DNA from: an uncultured Bacteroidales bacterium
GTDB lineage: Bacteria; Bacteroidota; Bacteroidia; Bacteroidales; Bacteroidaceae
Direction: 5' to 3'
Assembly: GCA_902768125.1 (NCBI GenBank)
Contig: CACXKA010000003.1
Coordinates: forward strand, 124,001-188,000
Length of the DNA stretch: 64,000 bases
The position numbers and the translations under genes are program-made. Below the pieces are notes generated by a model. It made no database searches, was not told the DNA's origin, and was given only the letters and a program-made list of their open reading frames with translations. Of the stretch, positions 27,931 to 37,856 are shown in pieces (the stretch's first letter is position 1; every line of letters begins with the position of its first letter).

Positions 27931-28007
27931 GTGGAAATGAAATAAATTGGGAAAAGTTTGGCGGAGTGGGGAAGAGGAATTGAGCAAAGTAGCAGAATAC
28001 ATATAAA

Positions 28008-28097
28008 ATATAGTATAACTAAAACCTGATGCCTAAGTAGGATAGGGGAGAAACAGAAAGAGCCTGTGCGATTGCACGGGCTCTCGTGTTGTAAGAA
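28008..28097. repeat. 90-bp direct repeat, left copy (flanks DUF2442 gene)
   Basis: Identical to 28493-28582 except for one base (G at 28086, A at 28571). It contains an 11-bp stem AGAGCCTGTGC/GCACGGGCTCT with a GATT loop. In this left copy no leftward gene ends nearby that would need it, which suggests it is the duplicated one. Confidence 0.92.
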
Positions 28098-28471: not shown

Positions 28472-28492
28472 TGTATACTTAATTGGATAAAT

Positions 28493-28582
28493 ATATAGTA
28501 TAACTAAAACCTGATGCCTAAGTAGGATAGGGGAGAAACAGAAAGAGCCTGTGCGATTGCACGGGCTCTCATGTTGTAAGAA
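28493..28582. repeat. 90-bp direct repeat, right copy
   Basis: Right copy of the repeat at 28008-28097, 485 bp away. It lies just past the end of the leftward operon at 28658. Confidence 0.92.
28532..28570 (-). terminator. Probable terminator of the restriction-like operon
   Basis: The hairpin of the right repeat copy reads on the minus strand AGAGCCCGTGC-loop-GCACAGGCTCT followed by TTCTGTTTCT. It lies about 90 nt after the stop codon of the PUA-like gene. Confidence 0.6.
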
Positions 28583-28657
28583 GATGATTGAGAAAATGAA
28601 ATCAATATTCAATATCTCAATATAGATACTTTCTATTTTTCTGTATTCTTATTGAAG

Positions 28658-29530
28658 TCATTCTTTTTCTTTACTCCAAAGTTCCAACAGCTGTTCACCC
28701 ACATCGCTTGAAAGCAGAGCACCAGAATGTCCTTTTCCCCATTCAAACGAAGGGATGGCTTCTTTTAGTTTTTCAAGAGACAAAGAAGGGACTTTCTCTG
28801 GTTTCACGGGATTCATGCAAAGCAAATCCACATACATTCTCCGTTTGGTGGAACCAGCCCAATCATCTGAAGGGTATGGGTCTGACAAGAACTGTCCGTT
28901 GAACACAATGCCAGCCTTGTCATCGCCCACGCGCATCATGTAGAAGGAATCTCCCCTTCGAGCCTCTTCCCATTCATAGATGCTCCAATTCATACGGAAC
29001 ATTCCGTTCTGCATGTTTTCCACACAAGCCTCATAGTCCTTCTCCGTGAAAGAGCTGATGGCTGGATTCCAACGCATCAGATACCGCTTCGGCTCCTTTG
29101 GCACAGGCAGCACCTCAAAGGAAATCTCCCATAGACAGCTGTCACCATTTGACGCTGGAATGATGGGCAGACCTGATCCTTGATAATTGAAACGGACAGT
29201 CGGCTCCATATCCACTCCGATAATCTTCGCCAAACAGTATTTGTCGCTTTCAGTCAGCACCAAGAATTGCAGAGAGTTCTTGATGACATAAGGGAACTCA
29301 CCATGATTATATAGATAGCAAGCATGATACGTGGTGGGCTTCTCATCAACGACTAATATCAAATGACCTTCAACGGTCTCCAGCATGTCATTCTGATTAT
29401 CTTCGCCGAGTTGCATGACAATGTGCGTGACCTCACCCTTGAGAACCCGGTCAATCACACCAGGACTCACCTCAACCGTCATCGCAACCTCATTGATGTC
29501 AACCTCTTTGTTTTTGTCTTCTGCTTCCAT
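28658..29530 (-). CDS. Protein of two possible PUA/EVE-like domains, restriction-associated
   Basis: 290 residues, no signal peptide. The C-terminal half (about 148-285) has the layout of an EVE/PUA-like domain: KRYLMRWNPAIS, WSIYEW, RGDSFYMMRVGDDKAGIVFNG, then SDPYPSDDWAGS and a final SFEWGKGHSGALL. The N-terminal half (about 15-140; GVIDRVLKGEVTHIV, GEFPYVIKN, CLWEISFE) could be an ASCH/PUA-type fold. Such domains read modified bases in DNA or RNA and often accompany restriction genes. Neither assignment is firm without a profile search. Last gene of a three-gene leftward operon, 68 nt after the methyltransferase fusion. Confidence 0.55.
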   Translation of the reverse strand: MEAEDKNKEVDINEVAMTVEVSPGVIDRVLKGEVTHIVMQLGEDNQNDMLETVEGHLILVVDEKPTTYHACYLYNHGEFPYVIKNSLQFLVLTESDKYCLAKIIGVDMEPTVRFNYQGSGLPIIPASNGDSCLWEISFEVLPVPKEPKRYLMRWNPAISSFTEKDYEACVENMQNGMFRMNWSIYEWEEARRGDSFYMMRVGDDKAGIVFNGQFLSDPYPSDDWAGSTKRRMYVDLLCMNPVKPEKVPSLSLEKLKEAIPSFEWGKGHSGALLSSDVGEQLLELWSKEKE

Positions 29531-29598
29531 AGGCTTATTGTTTTTTACGGATAATACTATCCGAATAAATCATTCAAATCTTCATCGTTTAATCTTCT

Positions 29599-32082
29599 CT
29601 ATTTTAAGAAGCCTAAGACATAGACCATCGGCCTCATTTTGTCAGCTAAAGCTTTGTAGAGCACATTGAAATCGTCCAGTTGGTTCTTTCCGTATTCTTT
29701 TGCAAGTGCTTTTATCTGATACCAACCACAATCCCAATTCATAATCTGATAATCTGGATTACCACCATTGAATAACTCTCGGAACGGGAAGGTAGAACAT
29801 ACGATTTCATTAGCCTTGTCAAGAACTGCATGTGCTTGTGAAGAAAGGATTGTAGCTTGGAGCTTTTGATAGACGAACCGATCTTTTGCCGTTCTTGCAT
29901 CATTATAGCATTCGTCCAATTGATGGTCACTTGCCAACTGTAGAATTTCCTCCTTGCTCATCCAGAAGAACTCGTTATAGATATTCCATGTCTTGCCCTT
30001 GAACTCTATTTGCCGTAATGAAGACTGATTACTGGAGGTATTAAAGAGGGAAAAGATAATGGCATCGTTTACAAACTCTTGGAATTGAGGATGTGTTTCA
30101 TCCGGAGCCAGATATTCGTCCTTTGAATTTACCCAATTCTTTTCAATAAGTTTACGAGCCGCAAACAATGATACTACACGTTCATAGTTTGCAGGCATAA
30201 TGGAAAGACCATTTGCATTGGATGAGTCACAAGTTGTAAAAATCGCCACTTTAAGCTGATTTTGGTCAACGCTGTTGCCCATATTTGAATAGCACCCCAA
30301 GGCATTCTGATTAATTTTCGTATTACAGTTTTTACCCTCTTTGACAGACAATGCACTTGAGAAAGTCGGTTTTTCCACTACGCTAATTCCCTTTATTTGT
30401 TTCTTTATCCATTCTTTGGCAGAATCTTTACCGTCAATATTATAGACATCCTTGCGCCCGATAGGTTGAATTTCTCCGTCAACCTCATCTATCAATTCAA
30501 AAGAGAAACTTTCTTTATTAACAGTTTCTCCAGATTTCCAAATAGAGAATGAGATGCCCCAATTATCTGATACGTCGGCAAAGTGACTTGCTTTAAATTG
30601 GCATGCACTTGCATAAGCGAATTCTTTCAAAAAGTGTTTTCTAAACACCGCCCAAGCAGGTCCTGTTAAGAACAAAGGTGGTGAGTATAGACCGATATGG
30701 CATTTTGTTAAATGGAAGACCTGCTTAATCCGCATTATACGATACAAGAATTGCGCATATAAATTTTTGCTGGCATTATCCATGCCATCTCTAACCATAT
30801 TCTTCTTAACGGCAGTATCACAAGAACCAGTGCCCTTAGTGTTGTCAGCCCCCTTACCAAAATCACTGCTTGATGTCGCATATGGTGGGTTAAGGAAGAA
30901 CACTATGGGCTTGTCTTGTTTGAGAGCTTCGTAAAGTCCCTGTGGTATTTTAGATTGATACTGTACAATGTCATCTGGACTTGGTATATAATCATTCAAA
31001 AAGTCAAATTGGAATTTGGTAGCTTCAGGGTTATAGTTTGCTCCCATATCCAATTCACTTTGGAAAAGTGTTGAGCAGTATAATTCTCCGAAGTGATAGT
31101 CTCGCGTCAGATTACCCGTTCCCCAACAGTTATCCCAAACTACATATTGCTCTTTCCATTCTTCGCCCAACTCGCGTTCAAGCATTTGGTGTGCATAGTC
31201 CACAAAGAGCGTTGGGGTCCAGAAATCACCTTTCATTCGTCTGTCTGCGTCTTCAATCAGACGATCAGCAATACTGGTCATTCTTGTCTTCTCTTGCGGC
31301 GTATAGTTTCTATCGAAATAACCGAAGAAAGACTTGAAATTACTGCCATCCATGTTCACGTTGGTGCCATTGCATACGAGGATATTGGGCTTGGTGGGAT
31401 GTTGGTAATAGTTGGTTGGGTCATTTAGTACCCCCATAAAGATACCCACCAAATCATGTCCGTTCAGTTTGTTTTTGCCTTTAAGGACATTCTTGCAGAA
31501 GTAGTCAAAGATATTGGAGATATTATGCTCGGTAACTCTGACGTATCGTTGAATATTACATGCCAAGTCTCGTATCTTTTCGGCAACTGCCTTGAAACTG
31601 AAATTCTCATCAATATTAAAAACAAATGGATTGATGTCAGCATCAATGGCGATTTTGACAACCAACTCGGGATAATTAAGGTGTGCTTGTGACGGAGCGG
31701 TTTCCCAATCCACATCTTCATCCAGATATTTCAACAGGGGATTGGTCTGAAGGGCAAAACATTCGTTTTTATCCCCTACAAGACAAACATTCGGTATAAT
31801 CTTTCCGTCCAACTCGAACTTCTTCAAATACCAAATAACTTGTATGAGCACTTTCGCTTTACCTGCTTTGTCGTTCAGCAGTTCATCCAGTTTGTACTCA
31901 ATAATCAAACGGAACTTATTACCGTTGACAACAGGTTCCATATATCCGTCACATTTGAACGGGTAGGTGTAATCGGTATTTGGGAAGTAAAGGGTCAAGC
32001 CGTTCTTATACGGAGTTTCAACACCTCTTTCATCAATTACATCTTTTATGGCATCGTAAAACTTGCTTCTGCTCATAAACAA
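29599..32082 (-). CDS. Type IIG-like fusion: PD-(D/E)xK nuclease and N6-adenine DNA methyltransferase
   Basis: 827 residues. Near the N-terminus a nuclease core is visible: Asp45, then Glu62-x-Lys64 in LIIEYKLDE. A helical region follows. The methyltransferase part has motif X GDFWTP (285-290), the AdoMet motif I WDNCWGTGNL (316-325) and the catalytic motif IV NPPY (398-401), which marks gamma-class N6-adenine enzymes. The C-terminal 400 residues may contain the target-recognition part. A nuclease and methyltransferase in one chain is the type IIG plan. Base composition is visibly more AT-rich than the flanking core genes, suggesting transfer. Middle gene of a leftward three-gene operon. Confidence 0.82.
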   Translation of the reverse strand: MFMSRSKFYDAIKDVIDERGVETPYKNGLTLYFPNTDYTYPFKCDGYMEPVVNGNKFRLIIEYKLDELLNDKAGKAKVLIQVIWYLKKFELDGKIIPNVCLVGDKNECFALQTNPLLKYLDEDVDWETAPSQAHLNYPELVVKIAIDADINPFVFNIDENFSFKAVAEKIRDLACNIQRYVRVTEHNISNIFDYFCKNVLKGKNKLNGHDLVGIFMGVLNDPTNYYQHPTKPNILVCNGTNVNMDGSNFKSFFGYFDRNYTPQEKTRMTSIADRLIEDADRRMKGDFWTPTLFVDYAHQMLERELGEEWKEQYVVWDNCWGTGNLTRDYHFGELYCSTLFQSELDMGANYNPEATKFQFDFLNDYIPSPDDIVQYQSKIPQGLYEALKQDKPIVFFLNPPYATSSSDFGKGADNTKGTGSCDTAVKKNMVRDGMDNASKNLYAQFLYRIMRIKQVFHLTKCHIGLYSPPLFLTGPAWAVFRKHFLKEFAYASACQFKASHFADVSDNWGISFSIWKSGETVNKESFSFELIDEVDGEIQPIGRKDVYNIDGKDSAKEWIKKQIKGISVVEKPTFSSALSVKEGKNCNTKINQNALGCYSNMGNSVDQNQLKVAIFTTCDSSNANGLSIMPANYERVVSLFAARKLIEKNWVNSKDEYLAPDETHPQFQEFVNDAIIFSLFNTSSNQSSLRQIEFKGKTWNIYNEFFWMSKEEILQLASDHQLDECYNDARTAKDRFVYQKLQATILSSQAHAVLDKANEIVCSTFPFRELFNGGNPDYQIMNWDCGWYQIKALAKEYGKNQLDDFNVLYKALADKMRPMVYVLGFLK

Positions 32083-32145
32083 TAATATTAAATCATGTCA
32101 CCCTCTTTCGTTAAACTTGTCAATTTGGAACCGCTTGATCCCCAC

Positions 32146-33102
32146 TCACATCTTCTTTATTATTGGCTTAAAGAACAATATGAACTTCTCCGTATACTCT
32201 TTGTACCAACTAAAGATTTCTTCTCGCGATAACGGATTGTTCAGGTCACCATTCTTATATATGTCAATGGTAGAAGCTTTCTTGTTATCAAGTCTTCTCC
32301 ATGTAAGTTTGATTCCAATGTGCGCTTCTGCTTCTTCCTTGTATTTTATTAAAGCATCGAAAGACTTTTTTTCGGCGTCGTCTGACATATAGAGCTGTAT
32401 AGTGGCCTTCTGTTCTCGCTTATTAAGGAGAAGAGAAATATGTATACCACCTTTGCCAATGGCAATACTCATCCAATGGTCATATGATGCGCTTCGTGTA
32501 CGGAATAGCTTCGACGGATTGTTTTTCATATATTCAACGAAAGCATTCCAATACTCATAGTTAAATTCTTCACCTTCGGAGCGACCTTCACTTGAAGCCT
32601 GAGAGCTTCTTACATCTTTTGACCAACCATTTGGTTTGGCAATGACGTTGAACATTGGAGCCGCAGGGCTATCACCAATCTTAATTAGTTCAATCTCTAC
32701 ACCAAAGAAGTTAAACTCTTTGTCGGTTATTCGGTTTAGCCAATCTATTACGGCACGATGCTCTTCAGTGAAATGTTCGGCTATCCAGATGATTGTGACG
32801 GCATCCAAGCCTGCAGCGTAAGTTAGTATCTGACCGAGGTGGTTGTGGTCTGTCTTCTCTAACTGATTCTCTATTAGCACATATTTGTCTGTGCCAGGGT
32901 CTACACAGAGGATGTCAGCCCTAAATGGACCAACATGCTCCTCCTGAGCTTTCACCTCCAGTTCATTCATGCCGAGTGCGTCTGCAAGCAGAGATATATT
33001 TTCCTCCGAAGCAAGCCAAGGCGTAAAGTCGCTGGCCTCGTTCTGCCAACAAGAACGTAGGTCGATCTTTGTAATCTTTGATAGTTTTATAGACACAGCC
33101 AT
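32146..33102 (-). CDS. DUF4268 protein with PD-(D/E)xK-like nuclease core
   Basis: 318 residues. The N-terminal half carries FRADILCVD (Asp63) and VLIENQLEKTDHNHLGQILTYAAG, the D...ExQ form of the PD-(D/E)xK motif with Glu78 and Gln80, typical of nuclease-like domains in front of DUF4268. The C-terminal half (about 175-318) is the DUF4268 region (FNYEYWNAFVEYMKNN, then HISLLLNKREQKA). Gln in place of the usual Lys occurs in active members of this superfamily, so activity is possible. First gene of the operon; the ATG at 33102 follows a strong hairpin by 5 nt. Role inferred: a second effector or accessory subunit of a restriction system. Confidence 0.8.
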   Translation of the reverse strand: MAVSIKLSKITKIDLRSCWQNEASDFTPWLASEENISLLADALGMNELEVKAQEEHVGPFRADILCVDPGTDKYVLIENQLEKTDHNHLGQILTYAAGLDAVTIIWIAEHFTEEHRAVIDWLNRITDKEFNFFGVEIELIKIGDSPAAPMFNVIAKPNGWSKDVRSSQASSEGRSEGEEFNYEYWNAFVEYMKNNPSKLFRTRSASYDHWMSIAIGKGGIHISLLLNKREQKATIQLYMSDDAEKKSFDALIKYKEEAEAHIGIKLTWRRLDNKKASTIDIYKNGDLNNPLSREEIFSWYKEYTEKFILFFKPIIKKM

Positions 33103-33107
33103 AATTC

Positions 33108-33143
33108 GATTGATAGTTTAGGTTAGTGCACCAACTATCAATC
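33108..33143 (-). promoter_or_regulatory. Hairpin next to the DUF4268 start codon
   Basis: GATTGATAGTT (33108-33118) is perfectly inverted at 33133-33143, with a 14-nt loop that contains GGT..ACC pairing. In the leftward mRNA the 3' side of the stem ends 5 nt before the ATG at 33102, so it covers the ribosome binding region. Confidence 0.72.
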
Positions 33144-33180
33144 ACGCCATGGCGCATAAAAAGAGCGCGATGCCCTTAAT

Positions 33181-33411
33181 GCGCATAGCAAGAGGTGAAA
33201 GCGTAGGAATACTTTTGGAACCCCTGTAGCAAGAGGTGAAAGCGTAGGAATACTTTTGGAACCCCTGTCTGTCATAAGTTGCACCACGCTCAAAGCGTGT
33301 GCGTCACTAAAAGACAGAACAGGTGGTTACCATTTACGACCCACCTGTCACTTATTATTGTCGTGCTTGTTATACCAATTTGAGTTTCCTACGCTTTTCT
33401 TGGCTATGCGC
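33181..33411. repeat. 230-bp structured element with terminal inverted repeats
   Basis: The left end (33181-33209) reads GCGCATAGC...AAAGCGTAGGAA and is inverted at the right end (33386-33411), allowing a small internal gap. Inside are two more dyads: GCAcCACGCT/AGCGTGTGC enclosed by CTGTCT/AGACAG (about 33265-33320), and ACAGGTGG/CCACCTGT (about 33320-33353). It may be a MITE-like element or a structured RNA segment in the leader of the leftward operon. Confidence 0.65.
33187..33268. repeat. Perfect 41-bp tandem duplication
   Basis: 33187-33227 and 33228-33268 are identical. The unit starts AGCAAGAGGTGAAAGCGTAG and includes part of the left terminal inverted repeat. Confidence 0.95.
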
Positions 33412-33460
33412 GAAATAATAGTGATGCATTGTTAGTCCGGATTTCTCCCCGAACCGTTGG

Positions 33461-33491
33461 CAAAAGTACGAAGAATGTTTGGAATGACAAA
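33461..33491 (-). promoter_or_regulatory. Probable promoter of the restriction-like operon
   Basis: Minus-strand TTTG (33488-33491), a 19-nt spacer and TACTTTTG (33461-33468). Transcription would begin near 33455, giving a leader of about 350 nt before the DUF4268 gene. Confidence 0.72.
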
Positions 33492-33514
33492 AGAATTTGC
33501 TGATTTTTTTCAGT

Positions 33515-33545
33515 CTCCTCCTCTATAGAGGAGGAGAAGTTTTTT
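33515..33545 (+). terminator. Perfect 22-bp palindrome followed by a T-run
   Basis: CTCCTCCTCTATAGAGGAGGAG (33515-33536) is self-complementary, followed by AAGTTTTTT on the plus strand. It has the form of a rightward terminator, although no rightward gene ends nearby; it may insulate the two divergent promoters. Confidence 0.6.
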
Positions 33546-33601
33546 CAGTGGAATCTGAACTTAACGGTAAACCTCGTAAAAGTCATTTTTTTAGGTTTTC
33601 A

Positions 33602-33633
33602 TTTGGAACATATTGAGAAAAATCGTATCTTTG
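33602..33633 (+). promoter_or_regulatory. Rightward promoter in front of the small-RNA candidate
   Basis: TTTG (33602-33605), a 20-nt spacer, TATCTTTG (33626-33633). Confidence 0.8.
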
Positions 33634-33639
33634 CATGCC

Positions 33640-33734
33640 CCAGGCGGGTAGTTTAAGGAGGGTTTGCCTTACTTTATGAAAAGAGACATATAATTGGGAA
33701 CGAAAACTCGTATTCGTTCCCAATTTTTTTTTTT
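33640..33734 (+). ncRNA. Candidate small RNA or transcription attenuator (about 95 nt)
   Basis: A strong promoter ends at 33633 and a very strong terminator begins at 33692: 13 perfect base pairs (33692-33704 with 33713-33725), an 8-nt loop and 11 T residues. No convincing coding frame fits between; the only ATG gives a five-codon peptide (MKRDI). Either this is a stand-alone small RNA or an attenuated leader of the replication genes to the right. Confidence 0.6.
33692..33734 (+). terminator. Very strong intrinsic terminator
   Basis: AATTGGGAACGAA pairs with TTCGTTCCCAATT, followed by an uninterrupted T tract to 33734. Confidence 0.95.
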
Positions 33735-33815
33735 GCGAGTAAACCTCAGACAGCATAATGCCCTAATAGTACATTCTTCCCCGACGAGCAATTCCGCTTT
33801 GTAGGTAAAAAGAGA

Positions 33816-34163
33816 ATGTATAAACAGATGAAACCTAAAAGGTTTAAGTCTGCCCGTCGCGGCAGCAAAAGAATGCAAGGGATTTCAAGAGAAGTCCGAG
33901 TGTTGGATCTGCAGGCAGCTTACGGCATCAGTGAGAATGCTCTGACAACGCTATTGGTGATGGCGAACCCGCACAAGAATGCACACCTATTTTATAAGGT
34001 ATGCAACTACCTACGTGGTTTCGATCCTCATTTGCAGGGAGAGTTTGTGGATGCTTTAGGCTTGTATTACGCTGGCGAAGCGCACATTATCACATGCATT
34101 GAGCACGTCGACGAACTATTGGTAAATCTGTACAAGGAAATTGACCGTATTTTCGAGTCGTGA
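33816..34163 (+). CDS. Small basic protein of unknown function, upstream of primase-helicase
   Basis: 115 residues from the ATG at 33816; a second ATG at 33828 is possible. The N-terminal 25 residues are strongly basic (MKPKRFKSARRGSKRM). The rest is predicted mainly helical, with no cysteine cluster and no recognised motif. The basic start suggests nucleic-acid binding. It precedes an SF3 helicase and a primase on the same strand, separated from them by 226 nt that hold a hairpin and a likely promoter. I do not recognise the family. Confidence 0.6.
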   Translation: MYKQMKPKRFKSARRGSKRMQGISREVRVLDLQAAYGISENALTTLLVMANPHKNAHLFYKVCNYLRGFDPHLQGEFVDALGLYYAGEAHIITCIEHVDELLVNLYKEIDRIFES

Positions 34164-34389: not shown

Positions 34390-35850
34390 ATGGAAGATTT
34401 CATATTACAAACAGAATCCTTCGATGATGAGCTGAATGCAAAAAGCCTCGAGTTGGAGAAGCAGCGTGACGAGCACCAGATTCATTCCGTTGAGTTGACA
34501 CTGGATGATATGCTGGGACGTGTGCAGTCAAGGCAAGCTGACATCTTGACAATCATTAGTGATATACGACACCCGGAGAAGGCTCTGCGCGGTATTCTAT
34601 GGAACGAGATTAAGTGTGCGGCAGATGGCAATTTGCTGTGTACCGTGTATCGTGAACGTAGAAAATCTGAACAGCGTGTCATTGCCTATACAGGCAGCTG
34701 CTGGGAGATGATTGGTCAGCAATTGTGGCAGTACTTTGTCAATTGTTGTGCTGAGAAATGTGGCGTTCCAGAGAAATACAGCAAAGACCCTGATTTCATG
34801 GAAAAGACATGGAGGCACACAGCATTCTCAGTTTTTGAACCCAGGAATTTTAAAGTTCCCGACGGTGAGGTGTGGCTAAATATGCAGAACGGCACGCTGG
34901 TGATCAAGCGCGATGGTACACCGCCTGAGTTGCGCCTGCACCGACGAGAAGACATGTTCTTCTACGTGCTGCCCTACAACTATAATCCCAGTGCGGAGTG
35001 CCTGCAATGGCAGACTTACCTCGACCGTGTGCTGCCCGAGAAGGATTCGCAGACAGTTCTGGCAGAGTTTATTGGCTATGCGTTGGCCAAGACACATATC
35101 CTGAACAAGATGCTATGGATGGTTGGTCCCGGAGCCAACGGCAAGTCGGTGGCTTTAGATACCATCGAGGAACTGCTGGGTAAGTCAAATGTCAGTAACC
35201 TTAGTTTTTCGGACTTAACAACAGAACCCGAAAAACGCGTGGGTATGGAAGGCAAGTTGCTCAACATCAGCACTGAGACAGGAAAAAAAGTGCGTGCAGA
35301 TGTTGCTAAGTTGCTGACAGCCGGTGAACCAGTAACGATAAAACATCTATACGAAAATCCGTTCACCACCCGCGACTACGGTCAGTTTATGGCTTCATTC
35401 AATGAATATCCGCGCCCAGAAATCACGGTGGCTTTCAAACGTCGTCTGATAGTGCTGCCCTTCGACGTCATCATCCCCGATGAGGAGCAGGACAAGGAAC
35501 TGACGCAAAAACTGCTCAAGGAGCTGTCGGGCATACTGAACTGGGTGATTCAGGCCATGCAGGGATTGATGGAACGTAAGGCATTTACGAAAAGTGAGGT
35601 TTGCCAGAAGGCGCTCGACCAGTACTTCATGCAGTCGGACAGCGTGCGTATGTTCTACCTTGAGATGTGCGAAAAGCAGGAATACAGCACCCGTGGTGAC
35701 GAACTCTTTAAGGCTTACAAGACCTATTGCTACGATTCGAACTACACACCACTGGGCAAAAGAAACTTCTACAAACGTCTTGACCAGCACACTCATACTC
35801 GCGAGGACATAGGACGTGTCGTTTATTTCCACCTTAAACTTGTATCATAA
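34390..35850 (+). CDS. SF3 (D5/P4-type) phage or plasmid DNA helicase-primase
   Basis: 486 residues. An N-terminal helical domain of the D5 type precedes the superfamily-3 ATPase: Walker A GPGANGKS (246-253), a B-type motif KLLNISTE (289-296), motif C FMASFNEYP (333-341) and a likely arginine finger in FKRRLIVLPF (about 349-358). A C-terminal winged-helix-like segment ends the protein. Such enzymes unwind DNA at origins of phages, satellites and plasmids. The stop codon overlaps the ATG of the primase gene (TAATG), indicating translational coupling. Confidence 0.9.
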   Translation: MEDFILQTESFDDELNAKSLELEKQRDEHQIHSVELTLDDMLGRVQSRQADILTIISDIRHPEKALRGILWNEIKCAADGNLLCTVYRERRKSEQRVIAYTGSCWEMIGQQLWQYFVNCCAEKCGVPEKYSKDPDFMEKTWRHTAFSVFEPRNFKVPDGEVWLNMQNGTLVIKRDGTPPELRLHRREDMFFYVLPYNYNPSAECLQWQTYLDRVLPEKDSQTVLAEFIGYALAKTHILNKMLWMVGPGANGKSVALDTIEELLGKSNVSNLSFSDLTTEPEKRVGMEGKLLNISTETGKKVRADVAKLLTAGEPVTIKHLYENPFTTRDYGQFMASFNEYPRPEITVAFKRRLIVLPFDVIIPDEEQDKELTQKLLKELSGILNWVIQAMQGLMERKAFTKSEVCQKALDQYFMQSDSVRMFYLEMCEKQEYSTRGDELFKAYKTYCYDSNYTPLGKRNFYKRLDQHTHTREDIGRVVYFHLKLVS

Positions 35851-36887
35851 TGGACAGCACTATACATGAACAATATGACTTGGAACGCCTGAGAGCCATT
35901 CCCATTGTTGGAGTGGCCCAAAGGCTGGGCTTGCAGGTGTGGCGTGCCGGGGTAATCCACAAGGCGCTCTGTCCTTGGCACGCCGACCACCATCCGTCGC
36001 TCGGACTCGTTACCGGTACAGATAAGAACTTCTGCTATTGCTACACGTGCGGCAAGGGAGGCTCGACCATTGACCTTGCTAAGCAAGTCGGAGGATGGTC
36101 GTTTCAAGATGCCTGTCAGTGGCTATCTGCCACATTCGGCATAAGTACGACAACGGTTAGAGGCTATGTACCACAACTGAGGACCAGACCTGTCGCAGTG
36201 GTACAGGAGCCTGCGATGAGTTACATACCCACGGGTATGGTCGATGAACTGGTGACTGTAGAGAACTCCCTATGCCAGTGTCTGATGCAAATGTTCCATC
36301 CAAAGTCTGTAGAATGGATCTGCGAGGAATACCGTTTAGGCGCTTATACTATGTGGGGATTCGACAACTGCACGGTGTTCCCAAACATTGATTGGCAGTG
36401 GCGTGTGTGCAACCTGAAGGTGCAACACTATGAGACAGACACTGAATCGTCACGATTTGGGCACAGCCAGAAAAACCAATGCTACATGTTAGCCTCCATT
36501 TGGAAGAAAAGTGGCAAACTACCTCCGAATGGTTGTTACGAAGCAAAATGTCTTTTTGGCGAACACTTGTTGCTGCGTTATCCCGACATGGTGATAGCTT
36601 TGGTGGAGAGTCCAAAGAATGCCATTTACGGAGCGCTTGCCTTTCCTAAAATGCTTTGGGTGGCAACGGGTAATAAATCGATGCTTCAACGTAGGTACCT
36701 AGAGCCATTGCGCAGCCGAGACGTCATCGTCATTCCAGATGCCGATGCCGTTCAAGACTGGACAAATCTTATTTCTAGGATGCGAGACATTGCCAACTTT
36801 ACTGTCAGCGATTTCTGTCTGCGTCATGCGCCAGAAGGGCAACCGAAATTCGACATTGCCGACTATGTCCAGCAGCAGCGCCAATGA
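35850..36887 (+). CDS. CHC2 zinc-finger primase-like protein with Toprim-like segment
   Basis: 345 residues. The N-terminal zinc finger has Cys41, His44, Cys64 and Cys67 (CPWH ... CYTC) with the usual following GKGGSTIDLAKQ, as in DnaG-type primases. The C-terminal half contains a Toprim-like pattern: a Glu in VESPKNAIYG and the Asp pair in IVIPDADA. The middle DnaG catalytic region is short and diverged. It presumably makes primers with the SF3 helicase encoded just before it, with which it overlaps by 1 nt. Confidence 0.85.
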   Translation: MDSTIHEQYDLERLRAIPIVGVAQRLGLQVWRAGVIHKALCPWHADHHPSLGLVTGTDKNFCYCYTCGKGGSTIDLAKQVGGWSFQDACQWLSATFGISTTTVRGYVPQLRTRPVAVVQEPAMSYIPTGMVDELVTVENSLCQCLMQMFHPKSVEWICEEYRLGAYTMWGFDNCTVFPNIDWQWRVCNLKVQHYETDTESSRFGHSQKNQCYMLASIWKKSGKLPPNGCYEAKCLFGEHLLLRYPDMVIALVESPKNAIYGALAFPKMLWVATGNKSMLQRRYLEPLRSRDVIVIPDADAVQDWTNLISRMRDIANFTVSDFCLRHAPEGQPKFDIADYVQQQRQ

Positions 36888-37239
36888 GTTTTTAATGAGT
36901 TTTTTGGACAGCCGCCTGTCAATACTAACTAGCTGACAGACGGCTGTTTATGTATGTCACCATGAGTTATTAATCTTATGCCATTTTAAAACTATCCGTT
37001 ATAGTGGTTCTTATAGTAGCCTTTTTCTGTATTCAGAAACTCAAAAACTCATTTTTGTAGGGTAACTATCAGAAAATCAATAGCATTTCATTCCGTAGAT
37101 AAGTGTGAAAAACTCAAAAAACACTCATGTCGGCATTATCGGCTGAAATCGATAAAATGATACCTCCGAGAAAAAAATCTTCACTAAATTTGTGAATTTC
37201 CAAAAGAATATCTATCTTTGCAGCCAAATAGAGAAGAAT
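36888..37239. other. Intergenic stretch with a 14-bp hairpin
   Basis: 352 nt between the primase and higB. ACAGCCGCCTGTCA (36908-36921) pairs with TGACAGACGGCTGT (36934-36947) with one mismatch, probably ending the primase transcript, though the T-run is poor. The rest is AT-rich and shows no gene; the higB promoter lies at its right end. Confidence 0.6.
37189..37220 (+). promoter_or_regulatory. Promoter of higBA
   Basis: TTTG (37189-37192), a 20-nt spacer, TATCTTTG (37213-37220). It excludes the upstream possible start at 37192. Confidence 0.8.
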
Positions 37240-37548
37240 ATGGTTATTGAATACGAAAAGGATTATCTCGAAGAGTTGTATAACGACGGGAAATGTTCGA
37301 ACAAGAAGTATCGTTTCCAAAAACAGGTCGTTGTAAAATACCAGAGGCGTATAGATACGCTGACGGCAGCCACTCGTATCGAAGATCTGTTTGTGTTCAA
37401 TTCACTCAATTTCGAGGCTTTGGAAAATGGCTATTATTCCATCCGTATAGATTATCACTACCGCCTGGAGTTTAAGATAAGGCAAGAGGGGTCGGAACCT
37501 GTAGTGACAATATGCACAGTTACAGACATAACAAACCACTATCAATAA
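37240..37548 (+). CDS. higB: HigB-type toxin, RelE/ParE superfamily
   Basis: 102 residues from the ATG at 37240, which lies after the promoter and begins the family N-terminus (MVIEYEKDYLEELY). Typical features are KYRFQKQVVVKYQRRIDTL, FNSLNFEALENGYYSIRID and YRLEFKIR. HigB toxins cleave mRNA on the ribosome. The downstream HTH protein is its antitoxin; in higBA loci the toxin gene comes first, as here. The pair lies in the accessory region beside the primase-helicase genes and may stabilise it. Confidence 0.88.
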   Translation: MVIEYEKDYLEELYNDGKCSNKKYRFQKQVVVKYQRRIDTLTAATRIEDLFVFNSLNFEALENGYYSIRIDYHYRLEFKIRQEGSEPVVTICTVTDITNHYQ

Positions 37549-37556
37549 TAGAAGAC

Positions 37557-37856
37557 ATGAATAGAATAACTACACATCCAGGAGACGTGCTGAAGGAGGA
37601 ACTGGAAGCAAGAGGCATTTCGCAGAAGAAATTCTCTGAAGTGCTGTCCGTTCCTTATACGCAGTTGAATGAGATACTGAACGGTAAGCGTCCGGTGACG
37701 ACAGACTTTGCATTGATGATAGAGGCGGCTCTCGGCATCAATCCGGAACTGCTCATCAACATGCAGACGCGCTACAACATGTCCGCAGCCAAACAGAAGA
37801 AACCGCTTCTTGCAAGACTGATCAACATTCGAAAAGCTTGCGCTGCAGTGTTATAA
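37557..37856 (+). CDS. higA: HigA-type antitoxin, HTH-XRE
   Basis: 99 residues from the ATG at 37557, 8 nt after higB; the frame is open further upstream but MNRITTHPGDVLKEEL is the normal HigA start. The helix-turn-helix is at about 22-60 (ISQKKFSEVLSVPYTQLNEILNGKR), followed by the dimer helix ALGINPELLINMQTRYNM. It should neutralise HigB and repress the shared promoter. Confidence 0.9.
   Translation: MNRITTHPGDVLKEELEARGISQKKFSEVLSVPYTQLNEILNGKRPVTTDFALMIEAALGINPELLINMQTRYNMSAAKQKKPLLARLINIRKACAAVL

Follow-up and report, generated by a model that had tools for sequence, protein, structure and literature searches.

A conserved, pseudoknotted RNA of about 265 nucleotides (nt) lies directly upstream of a restriction-like operon of three genes, A, B and C, in a 64,000-nt stretch of DNA from an uncultured Bacteroidales bacterium (contig CACXKA010000003.1, positions 124,001 to 188,000; hereafter the window). 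The RNA formed no part of a preliminary description of this DNA, which had singled out the three genes. Sequence comparison gives good support to a structured RNA placed as a leader behind a promoter, and this leader probably acts in cis to gate the restriction operon, at the head of a restriction–modification (R–M) cassette with exchangeable cargo. As far as Rfam 15 and the open-access literature covered show, the leader represents an undescribed class of RNA. From these patterns we infer transcription as one unit, cis regulation together with its direction and signal, and the activities of the enzymes.

The non-coding stretch preceding gene A is conserved with compensating changes between the window and locus L079 (loci carry the prefix L throughout), and a nucleotide search found matching stretches in 22/45 genomes of the genus. 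RNAalifold returned a poor structure from the first raw alignment, and we therefore drew helices P1–P7 by hand on 28 aligned copies and then tested them; the 3′ strand of P3 as drawn is located in the loop of P7. Of all cells for the 63 drawn pairs in these 28 sequences, 85.6% are paired, compared with 76.1% for shuffled and 34–45% for slid sequences; 33 of the 63 change on both sides, and pairing reaches 98.4% in the long-range helix P2 and 99.1% in the pseudoknot helix P3. A covariance model, R1, was built from these 28 copies with P2 in the model and P3 left out, and a test alignment (A3) was fitted to it. The leader of the window, itself one of the 28 copies behind the model, matches R1 at 168.9 bits over model positions 1–264 of 264 and has a fold z-score of −7.8. 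In 60 copies outside the model, P2 pairs in 540/540 cells and P3 in 478/480, against shuffled means of 82%; these copies are about half of the places matched by R1 in the family and come from its higher-scoring end, so that the percentages describe fairly intact copies. Several pair types occur at most P2 and P3 positions among them, a pattern of covariation. A 41-nt duplication in the window doubles the strand that forms P7 and the 3′ side of P3 and is found in none of the other 27 aligned copies.

Searches for a known counterpart of this RNA gave no match. No Rfam family passed its threshold in the window, a scan of positions 33000–33850 returned four listings at E 0.85–3.1, far below the thresholds, and three strong leader copies had no Rfam match at E up to 1. 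We found no description of the leader in the parts of the open-access literature covered, including PMC12373285, PMC8040213 (whose supplements lie outside this scope and could hold part of one) and PMC11109978. With neither an Rfam 15 family nor a published description found, identity with a known RNA was rejected.

The position of the RNA is as regular as its fold. We take TACTTTTG to be a promoter element of the TAnnTTTG (Bacteroidetes) type, and such an element occurs within 60 nt upstream in 75 of 94 RNA copies matched by R1, 66 of them in a single 4-nt band, compared with 10 of 349 background windows. Among the 89 near-complete copies that remain when five truncated ones (L302, L312, L315, L324 and L326) are excluded, 88 have a downstream open reading frame (ORF) of at least 70 amino acids (aa); L325 is unmatched. 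A gene starts on the same strand within 110 nt after the RNA in 75/88 copies, at a median distance of 45 nt, and the 83 upstream genes are split between 44 in the orientation of the RNA and 39 opposite to it. A U-run is present near the 3′ end in 78/94 copies (a count without a control), and a pattern search, likewise without a control, found a TTGATAG...CTATCAA hairpin just ahead of the start codon in 42/94. A conserved fold is therefore found between a promoter element and a gene start codon, and the promoter element, spacing, same-strand starts, U-run and hairpin together give the RNA the geometry of an mRNA leader.

The leader is widespread. Matches to R1 occur in 78/301 genomes of the family, spanning 16/30 genera (at E up to 0.001, counting weak and truncated matches), and in 17/295 genomes of the order (E up to 0.0001). 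We also applied R1 to 71 loci (49 of 79 genome loci with B, 8 of 69 viral loci and 14 others), 57 of them with gene B, and obtained six matches. One is L079; of the other five, all B loci in which the RNA stands just ahead of B, three are titled Salinivirgaceae, one Paludibacteraceae and one Bacteroidales. A sequence profile from an alignment that included these five loci was run over 152 B loci totalling 2.19 Mb, in which four viral contigs are present twice (L049–L052 recur as L158, L159, L161 and L162). It gave six strong matches 39–54 nt before B (the five R1 loci, L084, L088, L091, L127 and L144, and L137) and one before A in L079; six diverged leader copies precede B genes from other families. 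Borderline profile matches directly before B in L085 (7849–7926), L086 (7856–7948) and L087 (7854–7926), at E 0.8–1.1, look by eye like a variant subclass with the same helix order and different stem sequences. Windows before near-full B genes score 6 or more in 9 of 108 cases, compared with 0 of 339 control windows. In viral contigs no window before B reaches this score, and a search with one exact pattern, uninformative on diverged copies, gave 0 matches.

Restriction or candidate defence genes account for 52 of the 88 first genes downstream of the RNA, a sum of our own over several scans, the main one covering 25 of 33 families among those listed. EcoRI_methylase proteins lead with 38, and three are DUF4268 proteins; the others include a Dcm methylase (L301), a type IIG enzyme (L412), a type III methylase (L420), an N6/N4 methylase (L394), two HKD plus Snf2 helicases and two HSDR_N proteins, as well as weaker defence candidates, namely putAbiC (L327), a DEDDh exonuclease (L304) and a weak match to PDC-S31 (L321). 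As a control, the 83 upstream genes matched 20 PADLOC families, each in one member, with no PADLOC methyltransferase model among them; the Pfam control for these genes covers 25 of 67 families listed. A family of 770–776 aa proteins also stands behind the RNA in four genomes (L314, L363, L378 and L382). Its L314 member, scanned alone, has no Pfam or PADLOC match, and the family is a candidate for a defence gene of unknown kind.

Several results weigh against a leader devoted to restriction, or against details of its fold. Of the 88 first genes, 36 are not recognised as R–M or defence genes (lipoproteins, acyltransferases, sulfatases, a kinase, a radical-SAM protein and unknowns, the four members of the 770–776 aa family among them), which shows that the RNA is not specific to restriction, and the DEDDh/PDC-S48 models that we counted for one first gene also occur among the 83 upstream genes. 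The RNA accompanies at least 15 of the 30 EcoRI_methylase loci in the genus, which is also the number observed (14 by nucleotide search and the fifteenth by profile, some of the other 15 having little upstream sequence), and 99 of 108 near-full B genes have no match within 420 nt, so the RNA is dispensable. Within the fold, P4 as drawn is weak (55% paired in the 28 sequences) and P5 moderate (69%). An alternative helix, P10a, in which the segment ahead of the U-run would pair with the 3′ arm of P6, forms at 97.7% against a shuffled mean of 93.5%; this modest support is compatible with an attenuator and is no proof of one. A pseudoknot-like helix, PK, at 87.9%, lies barely above its shuffled value of 85.9%.

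Table 1 Features of the leader, operon and tail, numbered from the first letter of the window
Feature	Position	Strand	Basis
Promoter −7 element TACTTTTG, TAnnTTTG type, directly before the RNA	33461..33468	−	Position; counts over copies
Structured leader RNA: P1 hairpin, long-range helix P2, pseudoknot helix P3, P5–P7, U-run near 3′ end	33151..33459	−	R1 match, covariation, fold z-score
41-nt perfect tandem duplication over the P7/P3-3′ strand of the RNA	33186..33267	−	Repeat search, alignment
Start-codon-proximal hairpin TTGATAGT...ACTATCAA, 6 nt ahead of the gene A ATG	33109..33141	−	Pattern search
Gene A, DUF4268/PDC-S11 protein; D...ExQ nuclease-like N-terminal half (motif by reading)	32146..33102	−	ORF of 318 aa, family matches
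Gene B, type IIG-like restriction-methyltransferase; D43, E60xK62, GDFWTP, DNCWGTGN, NPPY	29599..32076	−	ORF, motifs, fold search
Gene C, N-terminal domain of unassigned type and C-terminal EVE/YTH-like domain (about residues 147–286)	28658..29530	−	ORF of 290 aa; fold search, low-confidence model
Tail, dispersed repeat with terminator-like hairpin after the operon	28490..28623	−	Repeat search; L315, L317, L302

The three ORFs of the preliminary description are all present on the minus strand, where it had placed them, with gaps of 69 nt between A and B (counted from the B ATG) and 68 nt between B and C. It had also judged that the set matches no classical type I, II or III system, and we rejected types I and III: Pfam, NCBIfam and PADLOC scans found no separate HsdS/HsdM/HsdR or Mod/Res subunits among the three ORFs and seven nearby ones. 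Profile searches placed A in a family and left B and C without one. For A, the DUF4268 label given earlier holds (Pfam, E 5.6e-28), and residues 5–317 match PADLOC PDC-S11 at E 1.3e-138, a whole-protein family match that supports membership of a candidate defence family; its N-terminal D63...E78-x-Q80 can be read as a nuclease-like motif, as had been claimed. DUF4268 is noted in proteins alongside DUF262 and DUF1524 in the part of PMC4619093 covered.

Gene B combines nuclease and N6-adenine methylase motifs, conserved across relatives, in one chain. Its ORF (29599–32082) encodes 827 aa, and the likelier start is the ATG at 32076, two codons in; numbered from there, the D45/E62xK64 of the preliminary description become D43/E60xK62. 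These three residues are invariant in six sequences, that of the window included, and E60 and K62 are kept in at least 90% of 29 relatives; GxxxTP, motif I and NPP(Y) are likewise conserved, which bears out the motifs read earlier. B has no match in Pfam (E up to 1), NCBIfam or PADLOC and no sequence match in PDB. Among the 29 relatives, three match Eco57I weakly (best E 3.1e-5), two match a PADLOC type II methylase model (best 1e-5) and none matches a PADLOC IIG model at E up to 0.01. An AlphaFold model of B (mean predicted local distance difference test score (pLDDT) 85.9, predicted template modelling score (pTM) 0.65) retrieved BpuSI first in Foldseek, then DrdV and BsaXI, with BrxX, type I M subunits, CamA and MmeI lower. 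Query-length TM-scores are 0.2–0.3 for BpuSI and DrdV and mostly 0.2–0.4 over the list, and the similarity is thus domain-wise only. The type IIG-like reading proposed earlier agrees with these motifs and nearest folds: B looks like a single-chain nuclease-methyltransferase for which cutting and methylation are predicted. Lacking a match to a IIG family model, it is filed as IIG-like rather than placed in a described IIG family; judged by these searches, what is new in B alone is its sequence family, the kind of enzyme being known.

Relatives of B occur in 29/295 genomes of the order, in 14/72,556 plasmid records and, by tblastn, in 0/50,697 phage records, yet also at 69 IMG/VR viral loci (L158–L226), which re-find the four known earlier (L049–L052). 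We therefore rejected B as a phage or plasmid hallmark and regard it as widely spread and not diagnostic. The closest viral relatives, at L049–L052, are 53–57% identical with the E-x-K motif kept, and neither A nor C was found within the fetched flanks of these four loci. Several of the IMG/VR contigs with B span 200–670 kb and are possible huge phages.

Gene C, described earlier as EVE/PUA-like, gained tentative support at the level of fold and none at that of sequence family. No family match passed the cut-off: at E up to 1 the sole Pfam listing is CoA_binding_2 (E 0.25), EVE and the other PUA-like models being absent, and nothing is listed by NCBIfam, PADLOC or PHROGs. Folded from two sequences, the model of C is poor (mean pLDDT 48, about 50–85 in the EVE/YTH-like domain). 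A fold search with it returned 33 matches at E up to 0.001, and most of the 50 matches listed are, by our reading, EVE, THYN1 or YTH structures, so this weak model suggests an EVE/YTH-like fold in the C-terminal half. No phage relative of C was confirmed; at L053 (8166–9149) a C-like protein has the two domains of C swapped, the EVE-like domain first.

In the mechanism that we propose, transcription would start from the promoter at the leader, which would fold into a pseudoknotted domain of P1, long-range P2, pseudoknot P3 and P5–P7 and end near the U-run, followed in many copies by a hairpin a few nt before the start codon of the first gene. The cargo behind it would be exchangeable and would here consist of A, B and C: B would place a methyl group on adenine at its own site and cleave DNA that lacks this modification, and A and C would be optional partners, C perhaps as a reader of modified bases. 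The RNA would limit or time expression of the restriction genes in cis, through an attenuator at its 3′ end, through a hold on the start codon, or both. Given the non-defence cargo, any signal would be a general one, linked perhaps to the recent acquisition of genes rather than to restriction itself. We offer more tentatively, as an idea whose chances fall somewhat short of even, that a new, ornate RNA class commonly stands at the head of Bacteroidales operons that are traded horizontally, those for restriction among them. It would be a sensor that, after the arrival of restriction genes, holds them silent or at a set dose until the pseudoknot is refolded by a signal from the cell or from infection.

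Three other explanations have to be set against a cis-acting leader with exchangeable cargo. The preliminary description had proposed that A, B and C form a self-contained defence unit of a new kind, with reader, writer and cutter, and the gene order does recur at L079, where A, B and C are 81.5%, 95.3% and 67.0% identical to those of the window, in a different neighbourhood and with a similar B–C junction; the EVE/YTH-like fold suggested for C by its weak model would also suit such a unit. However, L079 is the only one of the 79 genome loci with B that were fetched, the best of at least 495, with both A and C beside it (in 21 of the 79, a flank too short on one side could hide a missing neighbour). 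Five B genes 89–92% identical to that of the window (L080–L083 and L089) stand with neither A nor C in sight. Full-length C is found, besides L079, in four other places, once more in this genome and in three genomes of the genus, and the kind of gene in front of it differs among the four. At one of them, L244, C belongs to an EcoRI-family methylase operon, and the gene preceding it is DUF4268-like in its C-terminal half (blastp E 3e-11). At L384 a relative of A, 88% identical, precedes a gene related to the EcoRI-family methylases, with a product 51.7% identical to the L309 protein, which places A between the leader RNA and two different restriction cores, one in the window and L079 and another in L384. 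A fixed three-gene system was rejected on these neighbourhoods and we consider it very improbable; the order is real in one further locus and not obligatory. Comparative sequence instead makes a restriction core with exchangeable partner genes the likely unit, and the upstream RNA is, on the same comparison, the common feature of the most diverse of these operons.

Alternatively, the RNA may be the conserved 5′ terminus of a recombination module or mobile cassette. Homologous recombination through the common leader, and in some cases a common tail, would then exchange the cargo, and the fold would serve mobility or be a passenger. The very mixed cargo behind one leader speaks for this idea, as do the tail-like sequences directly after the cargo in the window, L315 and L317 and, at L302 (7191–7361; contig C13 of the same genome), a truncated RNA copy joined to a tail, an arrangement that loss of the cargo would leave. 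When the window is compared with L079, synonymous divergence changes from part to part of A and B and reaches its highest level in C, a pattern to be expected of a mosaic. Swapping alone, however, leaves the covariation of P2 and P3 and the narrow spacing of promoter and start codon unexplained, and the tail is present in only 5 of 94 RNA loci, the window included and many of them fetched with about 5 kb downstream, one of which (L319) has it away from the cargo; we think this explanation unlikely. Less likely still is a trans-acting partner, an RNA antitoxin or sensor of the type III toxin–antitoxin or AbiF/RCd22 kind, that binds the cargo protein and is released on phage attack. The promoter element and 3′ U-run, the latter counted without a control, make a separate short transcript plausible, and AbiF has an RNA antitoxin upstream of the defence gene, as noted in the part of PMC12373285 covered. 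Against it, a single RNA would need to bind many families of cargo protein, and the start codon about 45 nt after the RNA is leader-like. A cis-acting leader thus remains the reading that we favour.

Other repeats and genes surround the operon. A 93-nt repeat with a terminator-like hairpin flanks a DUF2442 gene in the window (28005–28097 and 28490–28582) and has ten full or partial copies in this genome, two other places being, by our reading, beside C5-methylase-like genes. A pair formed by a P4-type primase/helicase and a CHC2 zinc-finger protein (34390–36887) and a HigBA-like toxin–antitoxin pair (37192–37856) adjoin the operon and suggest the remains of a mobile element. Some neighbouring genes are, by our own reading, putative RhuM, TnpB, Abi_2 and DUF262 genes.

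Controller proteins are a known means of keeping restriction genes from killing a new host; to our knowledge, how the host is protected from operons without a controller protein is not understood. One structured RNA common to unrelated types of restriction enzyme would give such operons a shared, directly testable control, and the distribution of the leader suggests that the Bacteroidales defences sharing it have a common RNA-based control. If the proposed sensor role is true, the leader would be an RNA counterpart of type II controller proteins, common to type II, IIG and III systems that share no protein. The RNA would also point to unannotated cargo in Bacteroidales genomes, such as the 770-aa family found behind it four times. 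As judged from sequence, the claim of novelty concerns the RNA class, which has no Rfam relative, and does not extend to its putative mode of action.

Each component invites comparison with a known system. B shares with the type IIG enzymes BpuSI (3s1s), DrdV (7lo5), BsaXI (8w2p) and MmeI (5hr4) an N-terminal PD-(D/E)XK-like motif, an N6-adenine methyltransferase core with NPPY and a C-terminal region in one chain, but differs in having no Pfam, PDB-sequence or PADLOC IIG match and only partial similarity in fold. The C-terminal domain of C resembles, in its weak model (mean pLDDT 48), THYN1 bound to DNA with 5-methylcytosine (5mC), the YTH readers of N6-methyladenosine (m6A) and the restriction enzyme VcaM4I, which we take to carry an EVE domain; unlike these, C has no Pfam EVE match and an N-terminal half without assignment. 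A matches PDC-S11/DUF4268, a PADLOC candidate defence family, over its whole length; by our reading that label suggests a single-gene candidate, whereas A sits between a leader RNA and restriction cores. Among structured RNAs near methyltransferase genes, the D12-methyl and other orphan motifs near DNA methylase genes and the SAM riboswitches are the nearest in setting, but the leader has no Rfam 15 match and its cargo is far broader than DNA methylases. With the RCd22/AbiF RNA and the RNAs of type III toxin–antitoxin systems, as described in the part of PMC12373285 covered, the leader shares the arrangement of a structured RNA directly upstream of a defence gene. By contrast, those RNAs are tied to a toxin family and have short repeated motifs, whereas the leader is a single pseudoknotted domain of about 265 nt before many families of genes.

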